From: an uncultured Clostridia bacterium
Lineage (GTDB): Bacteria > Bacillota > Clostridia > Oscillospirales > Acutalibacteraceae
DNA length: 64,000 nucleotides
Assembly (NCBI GenBank): GCA_944412445.1
Contig: CALYBJ010000002.1
Span: 1 to 64,000 of the forward strand
Direction of reading: 5' to 3'
Part shown: piece after piece, positions 57,118 through 61,047 of the stretch
Layout of the letters: every line of letters begins with the position of its first letter
Numbering within the stretch: the first letter of the stretch is position 1
Notes under the pieces: generated by a model
Databases searched by the model: none
What the model was told of the DNA's origin: nothing
The model's input: only the letters and a program-made list of their open reading frames with translations
Made by a program: the position numbers and the translations under genes

Positions 57118-57807
57118 TTAAACTTTAAGTCCGGTTTTTGCGTTTAAAATGTTCCTAAAAACCGCTGCCTGATTGTTTGAAATATGCTTGTCCATGTGCA
57201 TACTGCCGAAATACCACTTTTTATATTTGCACTGAACAGCAAGCTCGTCAAAAAATGCGTTTAATGCAGAAACTCTGAAATCCTCTGCTTTCTGCATCAG
57301 AAGAAATTCTCTTGTTTTTGACGGAGGCTCGTGTGTCACAATAATATCAATGTCATAATGTGCTTTTTCCAGTCTGTTTACGGCAGAAAGCAGTTCTTCC
57401 TGAGTTGGTATTTCAAGCCGTTCGGAATCAATATCCTCAAAACGAAGCTCAGCCTCAGGCGATTCTCCTCCGCCCATTGTAAAAACTTTCATACCTTCTA
57501 TAGTATAAATCTGACCTCTCATAAGATGGTAGAGATTTCCGCATATATTTCTTGCTTTCCCGCCGTTCCAGTCTTCGGCGGGAAATTTATTTAAAAGCCT
57601 GAAATTTTCATGCGTACCGTCAATAAAGCAAATATTATATTTTCTTTTCCCCAAATTTCTTAAAATTTTATCTTCGTTCTTTGAGTCGTCCCATATAAAA
57701 CCGAAATCACCGCAAATTATAAGGGTATCGTGGATTTTCATGAATTTTAAAGCGTCAGCAGACAGACGGCTGACATCTCCGTGTATATCTCCGGTAACAT
57801 AAACCAT
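57118..57807 (-). CDS. Calcineurin-like metallophosphoesterase
   Basis: A 229-residue metallophosphoesterase. Metal motifs: VTGDIHGD at residues 4-11, ICGDFGFIWDD, IDGTHENFRLL (a variant of GNHE), IIVTHEPPS. Substrate unknown; similar phage-type and clostridial proteins act on phosphodiesters or phosphoproteins. GGAGGAAAAGAT is the RBS. Convergent with the Fe-ADH gene, with only six bases between the stops and no hairpin there. Confidence 0.9.
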   Translation of the reverse strand: MVYVTGDIHGDVSRLSADALKFMKIHDTLIICGDFGFIWDDSKNEDKILRNLGKRKYNICFIDGTHENFRLLNKFPAEDWNGGKARNICGNLYHLMRGQIYTIEGMKVFTMGGGESPEAELRFEDIDSERLEIPTQEELLSAVNRLEKAHYDIDIIVTHEPPSKTREFLLMQKAEDFRVSALNAFFDELAVQCKYKKWYFGSMHMDKHISNNQAAVFRNILNAKTGLKV

Positions 57808-57898
57808 ATCTTTTCCTCCGGAAAAATTAAATATTTGTATTTACATTTTTTCAGTTTGAATGTATACTTATTATAGCACTAATGTGGTGGGTGTGTCT

Positions 57899-59290
57899 AT
57901 GAAAAAGTTAATAATTTTTTTGATTATTTTAATTATATCGGTTATGCCGGGCCTTTCGCTGGCGGCAGGCGCCGAATACTATAATAACAACCTTGAAGAT
58001 ATGCGTTCCGAAGCATATCTTTTAGTTAATGTTGATACCGGCTCAACGGTTTTCTCCTACAATGCAGATAAAAAATTAAAATGCGCTTCACTTGTTAAAA
58101 TTGCAACTGCCGCAGTTGTTGTTGATAACTGCGACAACTTGGACGCAGAGGTGACCGTAACTCAGTCGGCGTTAAAGCCGCTTGAGGGCTTATACAGCTC
58201 CTCCAGCGATTTAAAAGTCGGAGAAAAAATTTCGGTAAGAAATCTTCTTTACTGTCTTATGCTTGAAAGCACAAACGATTCCGCAAATGTTTTGGCTGAG
58301 TATATCGGCGGAACAATTGATAATTTTGTAGTTATGATGAATGATTTTGCTGAAAGTATAGGTTGTACCAACACGAATTTTACAAACGCTCACGGTCTTG
58401 ATGAAGAAAACGAATACAGTACGGCAAACGATATGTATTTAATAACGAAATACGCTTTGGGAAACTCGGTTCTTGCCGATATGGGCAGCACCGTGGACTA
58501 CACTGTTCCTGCAACAAATATGTCGGAGGCAAGAAAGCTTAACACTTGGGTTGACCTGGTAGAGCAGGGCACAAGATATTATTATGAATACGCAAAAGGC
58601 TTTAAAACCGGATACACCGACGAAGCCAGCAGGTGTGCTTCAGCCGTAGCTACAAAGGACGCGTATACATACATAGGAATAATTTTAGGCTGTCCAAATG
58701 AAGACACGGACGGCTGCGGATATGTTGACAATACGGCGCTGTATGAAGTCAGAAGAATGTTTAAGTGGGCATTTTCCGAGCTTAGAATGACAACAATCGC
58801 CGAGGAAAACGATATTATAACCGATATTCCGGTATCATTGTCCACACAGGCGGATCATGTAAGACTTGTTCCTGAAAAGCAGATACAGGCGCTTCTTCTC
58901 AGCACCGTGGATCAATCAAGCCTTGAGTTTATCTGCGAAACCGAGGAAAATGTTATGGCGCCGGTAGAGAAAGGGCAGGTTTTGGGAACGGTTCAGATAA
59001 AATACGCAGACAGCGTTATTGCGCAGGTAAATCTTGTTGCCGGAGATTCAGTATCAAGAAGCCCTCTTCTTTATGCCGGATATATAGCTAAGAATATTAT
59101 AACTTCTCCGATTTTTTTAATAGCAGCTGCCGTTGTATTTGCCGGAGTAATGCTTTACATCTTTATTATTTTCAGCAAATATAAGAAAAAACAGAATGAA
59201 ACAAGAAAAAGGCTTAGAGAGATAAAAGAGAGAAATTATGCGTCTGATTCCGATTTATCAAAGGCATACCAAGAAAACAAAAATAAATGA
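57899..59290 (+). CDS. D-alanyl-D-alanine carboxypeptidase with C-terminal TM anchor
   Basis: A 463-residue secreted S11 peptidase. Signal peptide 1-23; catalytic SLVK (Ser64, Lys67), STN in MLESTNDSANV, KTG in GFKTGYTDEAS; a beta-rich C domain, then a TM helix (about 408-430, PIFLIAAAVVFAGVMLYIFI) and a basic cytosolic tail. This differs from the amphipathic-anchor form at 10334. The start is ATG 57899 after GGTGGGTG. Terminator at 59296. Likely trims peptidoglycan stem peptides at the membrane. Confidence 0.92.
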   Translation: MKKLIIFLIILIISVMPGLSLAAGAEYYNNNLEDMRSEAYLLVNVDTGSTVFSYNADKKLKCASLVKIATAAVVVDNCDNLDAEVTVTQSALKPLEGLYSSSSDLKVGEKISVRNLLYCLMLESTNDSANVLAEYIGGTIDNFVVMMNDFAESIGCTNTNFTNAHGLDEENEYSTANDMYLITKYALGNSVLADMGSTVDYTVPATNMSEARKLNTWVDLVEQGTRYYYEYAKGFKTGYTDEASRCASAVATKDAYTYIGIILGCPNEDTDGCGYVDNTALYEVRRMFKWAFSELRMTTIAEENDIITDIPVSLSTQADHVRLVPEKQIQALLLSTVDQSSLEFICETEENVMAPVEKGQVLGTVQIKYADSVIAQVNLVAGDSVSRSPLLYAGYIAKNIITSPIFLIAAAVVFAGVMLYIFIIFSKYKKKQNETRKRLREIKERNYASDSDLSKAYQENKNK

Positions 59291-59295
59291 GCGTA

Positions 59296-59332
59296 AAAAT
59301 GTAAGATCGTTTATTTCGGTCTTGCATTTTTG
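59296..59332 (+). terminator. Terminator after the third carboxypeptidase gene
   Basis: AATGTAAGA pairs with TCTTGCATT across a loop (TCGTTTATTTCGG), followed by TTTGTA. Confidence 0.75.
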
Positions 59333-59351: not shown

Positions 59352-59780
59352 TTGAAAGGATTTTCCTCCGTCAATCGTATTATATACAGATGTGAATATT
59401 CTTCGTGTCAGGCTGTATGTGAACCGGCGGCTGACGGAACGGGAAAGCAAAACGAAAACAATAAAAGCACCGCTTCTTCCTCAATAAAAAGCGAAGATGA
59501 ATCGGCTGAAAGCATAAAGGAGGCGACAAGCAGCACATTATGTGAATGTTCAATATGTGAAAATAACGGTGTGCCGGTAACAGACGGTACGGGCTTGCAG
59601 TACGGTAAAGAAAACAATAAAAATTCAAACAATTATAACAGCCTCGGAGACAATTCGGGAAAGTGCGGCAGCCGCGGCGAAAACTGCACATCTGCGTGTG
59701 AGCCTTCAACAGACAGAAGCGGAAGGTTCGGCAGCGGCGAAGGAAAACAGGCCATGTGCGGCAGGGAATTTTGTAAGTAA
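59352..59780 (+). CDS. Cysteine-rich protein with three degenerate DGTG repeats, unusual start
   Basis: A 142-residue frame with 11 cysteines and three related units: around residues 14-38 (CEPAADGTGKQNENN), 64-90 (VPVTDGTGLQYGKENN) and 105-130 (CEPSTDRSGRFGSGEG). Long Ser/Asn/Glu-rich linkers separate the units. No TM segment. The only conventional start is TTG 59352, which overlaps the apparent SD AAAGGA (59355-59360). The position nine bases after that SD is GTC (59370), so the true start or a decayed start is unclear. It ends 15 bases before the ECF sigma gene. I recognise no family; real expression is inferred from repeat conservation and operon placement. Confidence 0.6.
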   Translation: MKGFSSVNRIIYRCEYSSCQAVCEPAADGTGKQNENNKSTASSSIKSEDESAESIKEATSSTLCECSICENNGVPVTDGTGLQYGKENNKNSNNYNSLGDNSGKCGSRGENCTSACEPSTDRSGRFGSGEGKQAMCGREFCK

Positions 59781-59795
59781 GCAAGAGGAGATATT

Positions 59796-60278
59796 ATGCG
59801 AAGCGAAAAAGAAGCAGTCAGGGCAATCGAAGCGTATTCTGATACCGTTCGCAGAATCTGTATGCTTCATTTAAAAAGCTATTCCGATACGGAGGATATT
59901 TTTCAGACTGTTTTTCTTAAATATCTGACTTATCGGGGAGATTTTCAAAGCGACGAGCATGAAAAAGCCTGGTTTATTCGGGTAACTGTAAATGCCTGTA
60001 AGGATTACCTTAAAAGCTTTTTTCGCAGCCGCACAATATCCCTGGAGGAATTAAAGGATGTTTCATCAGAGGTAACAGAAAGCCGCGGAGAGGTATTATC
60101 CGCAGTTTTATCCCTTCCGCAGAAATATAAAGATGTTGTATATCTGCACTACTATGAAGGCTATACAGCTGTCGAGATAGGCAGGATTTTAAAAAAGAAT
60201 GAAAATACGGTTTACACTCTCTTATCGAGGGCAAAAAAAATATTAAAGGAAAAGCTGGCAGGTGATGATTTTGAGTAA
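59796..60278 (+). CDS. ECF-type RNA polymerase sigma factor
   Basis: A 160-residue sigma-70 family factor. Region 2 lies at about 10-80 (YSDTEDIFQTVFLKYLTY, HEKAWFIRVTVNACKDYLKS). Region 4 helix-turn-helix is at about 105-155 (YEGYTAVEIGRILKKNENTV). AGAGGAG precedes the ATG. The stop overlaps the anti-sigma start region, so the two are coupled. Target promoters cannot be read from here. Confidence 0.93.
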   Translation: MRSEKEAVRAIEAYSDTVRRICMLHLKSYSDTEDIFQTVFLKYLTYRGDFQSDEHEKAWFIRVTVNACKDYLKSFFRSRTISLEELKDVSSEVTESRGEVLSAVLSLPQKYKDVVYLHYYEGYTAVEIGRILKKNENTVYTLLSRAKKILKEKLAGDDFE

Positions 60279-61047
60279 CAGAATTTTTGAAGCATTTGAC
60301 AGCATCTGTGCCGAAGAGGAGCTAAAAAAACAAACTCTTAAAGCAATGAGGTTAAAAATATATGAAAATCAAGGCAGTCACACTTCTTTCAAAAAAGCGG
60401 CAATTATAATGTGTTCTGTTTTTGCGGTGATTTTTCTCTCCTGCTTGGGTGTTTATAAAATACCGGTATCTGCCGTTTCAATTGACATAAACCCATCAAT
60501 ACAATTAAAAATCAACGGATTGGATAGGGTTATCCAAGCGGAAGCCATGAATGAAGAAGGCAGGGAAGTAATCGAATCTGTCAGCGTAATGAATTTAAAA
60601 TATGATGAAGCTGTCGAACTGATTATAAGCTGTGAAGAGGTGCAGAAATACATTACGGACGATTCGGAAATAGATATAGCCGTGGCAAGCAGAAATCAGC
60701 AGAAAAGCACAGATATGGAAAACGGTATAAAACAGTGTATAAACGGCGCATCGGATGTAAATTGTTTCTGCGTTAATTATGACGATGCGGTTTCTGCCGA
60801 TAGCTTCGGGATGTCCGTCGGTAAATACAGAGCTTATTTGCAGCTTATTGAGCATTATCCGGATATAAGCTCCGAAGAAGCCGCCGAAATGTCTATGAGT
60901 GAAATAAGAAGGCTTATAAACGGTGCAGACAGTGAAACTCAGGATTACGATAATGTTTCGGGAGCTGTCACCCAAGAGCCGAATTCTTACTGTGCAAATA
61001 ACGTGGCACAGGGAGCTCACAGCGGACATATGCACGGCAAAAAATAA
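60271..61047 (+). CDS. RsgI-like membrane anti-sigma factor
   Basis: About 258 residues. A cytosolic N-terminal segment (about 1-42, IFEAFDSICAEEELKK) should bind the sigma factor; a TM helix at about 43-62; then an extracytoplasmic domain with the RsgI-family hallmark VSIDINPSIQLKINGLDRVI. The C terminus is low-complexity and ends HSGHMHGKK. Start unclear: TTG 60271 has AGGTGA six bases upstream, ATG 60265 and GTG 60262 are alternatives; all overlap the sigma gene. It probably holds the ECF factor inactive until a surface signal arrives. Confidence 0.87.
   Translation: MSNRIFEAFDSICAEEELKKQTLKAMRLKIYENQGSHTSFKKAAIIMCSVFAVIFLSCLGVYKIPVSAVSIDINPSIQLKINGLDRVIQAEAMNEEGREVIESVSVMNLKYDEAVELIISCEEVQKYITDDSEIDIAVASRNQQKSTDMENGIKQCINGASDVNCFCVNYDDAVSADSFGMSVGKYRAYLQLIEHYPDISSEEAAEMSMSEIRRLINGADSETQDYDNVSGAVTQEPNSYCANNVAQGAHSGHMHGKK

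Follow-up and report, generated by a model that had tools for sequence, protein, structure and literature searches.

A cysteine-rich frame ahead of an ECF sigma/RsgI-type anti-sigma pair in an uncultured Clostridia bacterium is probably the 5′-truncated remnant of a secreted repeat protein gene

The window analysed here is a stretch of 64,000 nucleotides from an uncultured Clostridia bacterium. Near its end lies a cysteine-rich open reading frame (59352–59780, forward strand; TTG-initiated, 142 amino acids, 11 cysteines), followed 15 bases after its stop codon by the ATG of a sigma factor gene at 59796, and then by the gene for a membrane anti-sigma factor. A sequence-only reading had described an 11-cysteine frame without family match at this distance from the sigma gene, and this was confirmed by the list of open reading frames and by a Pfam/NCBIfam search, in which the frame had no match at the curated cut-off. 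A 134-amino-acid frame runs antisense over the same stretch. The length of the cysteine-rich frame alone is therefore little proof of a gene, and homology and synteny are the evidence. The locus contains the following features:

59294–59332, forward strand: intrinsic terminator of the upstream D-Ala-D-Ala carboxypeptidase gene (dac); stem AAAAATGTAAGATCG/CGGTCTTGCATTTTT, −17.9 kcal/mol, z −3.7
59353–59381, forward strand: ECF promoter TGAAAG-N16-TCGTATT, through which the sigma factor is predicted to drive its own operon; motif shared with related loci
59391–59780, forward strand: probable 5′-truncated remnant of a secreted Cys/DGTG-repeat gene, mature part only; unit profile, syntenic homologues in genomes G138 and G166, reciprocal match
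59796–60278, forward strand: ECF sigma factor, SigW-like, 61–70% identical to loci L061–L140; domain and structure-sequence matches
60271–61047, forward strand: membrane anti-sigma factor with short cytoplasmic domain, transmembrane helix, RsgI_M domain and His/Gly tail; RsgI_M match and structural model

The terminator separates the ECF operon from dac. The sigma protein matched Sigma70_r2 (5e-10) and Sigma70_r4_2 (3e-13), both over the gathering threshold, scored 85 bits against TIGR02937 (cut-off 42.9) and matched SigW (5wuq) with an E value of 1.6e-16. Judged by these matches it is a two-domain, true ECF factor near SigW. In SigI factors the C-terminal domain shows no homology to sigma-4 (PMC10575876); the window protein has a strong sigma-4 match, and there was no SigI model among the matches listed. 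A sigma alignment was used to scan 84,980 species genomes, and the best 80 of 494 relatives, with sigma factors 61–70% identical, were taken for comparison.

The frame at 60262–61047 matched RsgI_M (PF23750) at 1.9e-24. Translation probably starts at the TTG at 60271 (MSNRIFEAF...), which aligns with relatives, and not at the GTG at 60262. This TTG overlaps the sigma stop codon, and the two genes are probably translationally coupled. RsgI_M was found in all 32 aligned anti-sigma members, and the RsgI_N cytoplasmic domain, which binds sigma-I, in none of the same 32. An Asn-Pro motif (INPS in the window) is present in the anti-sigma factor at 78 of the 80 loci that were the best of 494. Most PDB matches were to RsgI chains that start exactly at the cleavage-site proline (8hep_B, 8hdj_B and others; profile position 79), and an AlphaFold model with pLDDT 84 gave Foldseek matches to 8hdj, 8hep and 8t9n. 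The protein is thus an RsgI-type anti-sigma factor, in which RsgI_M with a predicted Asn-Pro cleavage site follows a single transmembrane helix. Its C-terminus is a low-complexity His/Gly tail.

When translated, the DNA upstream of related operons repeatedly reads NGFPxxNRIxxE, and the window frame starts with LKGFSSVNRI. The string recurs because a DNA motif, TGAAWGGATT...TCGTATT, underlies it. The consensus of this promoter is TGAAWG-N16-TCGTATT. Using the pattern TGAANG-N16-[TG]CG[TC]AT, with spacers of 14–18 permitted, we found the promoter ahead of the operon in 61 of 81 related loci, always with a spacer of 16; TCGTGT or ACGTAT variants occur in several of the remaining loci. Where present it was found once per locus when both strands were scanned, and the window genome (G000) has a single perfect match, at 59353–59381. 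At the one-mismatch level there were seven sites in this genome (six beyond the perfect match), compared with six for a reversed-pattern control. No further regulon members therefore emerged in G000, and we infer that the sigma factor serves its own operon only. The sequence-only reading had attributed a poor start to a TTG overlapping its ribosome-binding site. Both the TTG and the supposed site (AAAGGA) instead belong to the −35 region of the conserved promoter, and the first 13 codons of the frame are therefore non-coding. In a related ECF/RsgI_M lineage (L002, L003 and L040; MEKTSSGTND...), a TGAAWG-N16-TCGTAT promoter is present and no secreted repeat gene lies ahead.

An open reading frame with a signal peptide ends beside the sigma gene in 71 of 76 loci, these being the ones among the best 80 of 494 that have enough upstream DNA. 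One of the 71 (L120) encodes an unrelated membrane protein, and for two upstream frames (L107 and L129) the script assigned wrong starts, so the number of secreted homologues is given as about 70 of 76. This search beside other ECF/RsgI loci, which had been proposed from the sequence alone, bore out the view that the cysteine-rich frame belongs with the sigma/anti-sigma pair, since its homologues adjoin other such pairs. DxDxDGxxD repeats are present in 65 of the upstream frames of the 76 loci (again from the best 80 of 494) and DGTG repeats in nine. The former have the consensus (Y/F)VDADGDG(V/I)CDN, with cysteine in 97% of 151 units, and the latter look like CPNxGVxxxDGTGxQxGK. Both types occur together in single proteins (L110, L077, L126, L140 and G064), which indicates one family. 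The window frame contains the DGTG type only.

In 200 genomes of the same taxonomic family, weak matches to the cysteine-rich frame were found, and those in G138 and G166 lie directly upstream of an RsgI homologue or its sigma factor. With the G138 protein as query, the window frame was reciprocally the best match in its genome (E 1.3e-4). A DGTG-unit profile built from other species only, with the window frame left out, scored 29.8 bits on that frame (E 2.8e-8 in a search of the window's 1375 six-frame segments); the best of 5000 shuffles reached 10.3 bits. Of three related units claimed earlier, the profile recovered two, P-A-A-DGTG-K-Q and C-E-N-N-G-V-P-V-T-DGTG-L-Q-Y-G-K; the third (CEPSTDRSGRFGSG) has diverged too far to be scored. 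Ordinary searches miss the secreted gene because it is short and repetitive.

The DxDxDGxxD loops of the secreted family are also found in TSP3/EF-hand calcium-binding repeats, but here each loop carries a fixed cysteine (97%), and DGTG is the only type in the window protein. On the repeat family, the Pfam TSP3_bac and EF-hand models gave no significant score (E 0.35 or worse). Putative binding of Ca2+ or Zn2+ by the intact family is plausible. AlphaFold gave no usable fold for a secreted relative (L080, pLDDT 58). By eye, the C-termini of some secreted proteins (L084, L128 and L079) resemble surface domains of the Listeria-Bacteroides repeat or LRR type, which hints at a function on the cell surface. 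The upstream frame of L073 is a giant of 334 amino acids with 36 cysteines, arranged in regular DGICDNCGVSGKHGYCH repeats that resemble metal (zinc) ligands.

The window frame shares with this family its position before the sigma gene, the promoter and cysteine-containing DGTG units. It lacks a ribosome site, a start and an N-terminal signal peptide, all of which its relatives have, and is therefore considered a remnant and not a functional member. In relatives the ATG lies a median of 76 nt from the TGAA of the promoter and the first mature cysteine 41 codons further on, about 200 nt in total, compared with 38 nt from TGAA to the first cysteine in the window. About 160 bases, corresponding to the 5′ leader, ribosome site, ATG and signal peptide, are thus missing. 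No in-frame ATG, GTG or TTG with a ribosome site was found 3′ of the promoter in the window frame, and a genome-wide search revealed no second copy of the secreted gene. A deletion between ribosome site and mature part was considered and dropped: as AAAGGA is promoter sequence, the loss extends to the ribosome site. The simplest explanation is that a 5′ deletion took the leader, start and signal peptide and spared the promoter. Lacking these 160 or so bases, the gene probably yields no protein, and the earlier suggestion of decayed translation pointed in the right direction, there being no usable start after the promoter and no signal peptide. We put at about 0.78 the probability that the frame is a remnant, truncated at its 5′ end and probably untranslated, of the gene that forms the output of a self-contained ECF module.

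That the frame remains open for 130 codons counts against a remnant, and implies either that the truncation is recent or that the assembly is wrong. In the latter case, an assembly or strain artefact, the living population would have an intact secreted gene from which about 160 bases were dropped during assembly. The genome is in 48 contigs, the remaining frame is undisturbed and a repetitive family can confuse assemblers; however, the missing piece is the non-repetitive leader and signal peptide, the contig is continuous without an N run or break, and the stretch from terminator to promoter appears normal, so that we regard an artefact as unlikely. More improbable still is a functional intracellular cysteine-rich regulator, made from an unusual start and binding metal or sensing redox beside the anti-sigma factor. 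The retention of 11 cysteines, and of an open frame until 15 bases ahead of the sigma gene, would be in keeping with such a protein, but the TTG lies upstream of the promoter −10 element and hence off the transcript, and there is no ribosome site or start further 3′. Relatives in the same position bear signal peptides and are secreted, and the cytoplasmic regulatory or redox-sensing subunit envisaged by the sequence-only reading is therefore not supported. That the stretch is no protein gene, and is a chance frame or an RNA leader of the sigma operon (as it stands, an untranslated leader of roughly 400 nt, with the antisense frame also present), is hardly credible given the DGTG-unit score relative to shuffles and an operon position identical to that of the homologues. 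No Rfam family was found in the leader; one weak snR9 match elsewhere was attributed to chance.

Alongside the truncated remnant, the sigma and anti-sigma genes look intact, with residues conserved in the family kept, and in the window species the pair probably runs as an orphan loop. The dac gene and its upstream neighbours (57118–59290 in the window, compared with L174–L181) are syntenic in the genus, and elsewhere different genes lie 3′ of dac. None of the other 10 members of the genus has the ECF locus, so that within the genus the module occurs only in the window species. At L048 (G138, 1229–2004) and L036 (G064, 1080–2298) the promoter and secreted gene are kept and the sigma gene is lost, and in G138 the N-terminal part of the anti-sigma factor has been lost as well. 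Such partial losses indicate that the module decays in several ways in the family.

Across 66 related loci, the histidine fractions of the anti-sigma tail and the secreted protein co-vary, with r = 0.61 in independent contrasts (sign-flip p = 0.0001), or 0.67 when the secreted protein is represented by its last 25 residues. The relationship was weaker for asparagine, weaker still for glycine, and not seen for cysteine, serine, glutamine or lysine. As controls, histidine in the secreted protein gave 0.10 against the sigma factor and 0.35 against the anti-sigma factor outside its tail; because of the latter, a general trend in composition may account for some of the signal. The co-variation suggests one shared extracellular ligand, perhaps a metal, or mutual binding.

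The module combines properties of two known kinds of system. With SigI/RsgI of Clostridium thermocellum and Bacillus subtilis it shares the transmembrane helix and RsgI_M, which match 8hdj, 8hep and 8t9n in sequence and fold, and a variable extracellular C-terminus, the presumed sensor. It differs in that the sigma factor is a SigW-like ECF factor with sigma-4, no RsgI_N is recognised, the C-terminus is a His/Gly-rich tail and not a carbohydrate-binding module, and the operon is headed by a secreted repeat protein. With SigW/SigV-type ECF systems it shares an ECF sigma factor, an autoregulated TGAA..N16..CGT promoter and a membrane anti-sigma factor. In contrast to these, its promoter core is longer (TGAAWGGATT..TCGTATT) and occurs about once per genome, its anti-sigma factor is of the RsgI_M type, and no general envelope-stress regulon was seen.

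RsgI signalling has been described as proceeding through self-cleavage, RseP and ClpXP (PMC12203970), and wall sensing in B. subtilis has been postulated for a disordered region of RsgI (PMC10128001). A scheme can be proposed from what was observed: the order of the genes, the promoter and its single occurrence per genome, the signal peptides, the RsgI fold and the tail co-variation. The family operon runs from the ECF promoter through a small secreted repeat protein and the ECF sigma factor to the RsgI-type membrane anti-sigma factor, which would keep the sigma factor at the membrane. Like RsgI, the extracellular domain of the anti-sigma factor may cut itself at Asn-Pro, and a pull or ligand on the His/Gly-rich tail, by analogy the sensor, would part the cleaved halves. 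A site-2 protease and then ClpXP would release the sigma factor, which would transcribe only its own operon, giving more secreted protein, sigma factor and inhibitor. In this scheme the secreted protein is the output: it would probably be located at the surface, bind metal or the wall, and act on whichever extracellular ligand the anti-sigma tail responds to.

The module consists of an ECF factor that is controlled by an RsgI-type lock and of a secreted protein as its dedicated output. Among the loci from the best 80 of 494 it is distributed over Lachnospiraceae, Oscillospiraceae and other gut Clostridia, and cultured strains that have it include Butyricicoccus pullicaecorum DSM 23266 and Mediterraneibacter agrestimuris DSM 111629. 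No published description of an ECF/RsgI/secreted-repeat operon was found in the literature searched, nor any match to the repeat string. A bolder and more doubtful proposal is that this is a widespread, undescribed one-operon signalling module of gut Clostridia in which a single-target ECF factor, a self-cleaving RsgI-type lock whose His-rich tail binds metal, and a secreted repeat protein that competes for or presents that metal or wall ligand form an extracellular feedback loop, the window copy decaying to an orphan loop.

An odd open reading frame can thus be assigned to a conserved three-gene module that seems not to have been described, and provides a case in which an annotated frame harbours the promoter of its own operon. 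The RsgI self-cleaving lock is also paired with true ECF factors, and with a defined promoter and a single predicted output, the signal and the role of the secreted protein are directly testable.
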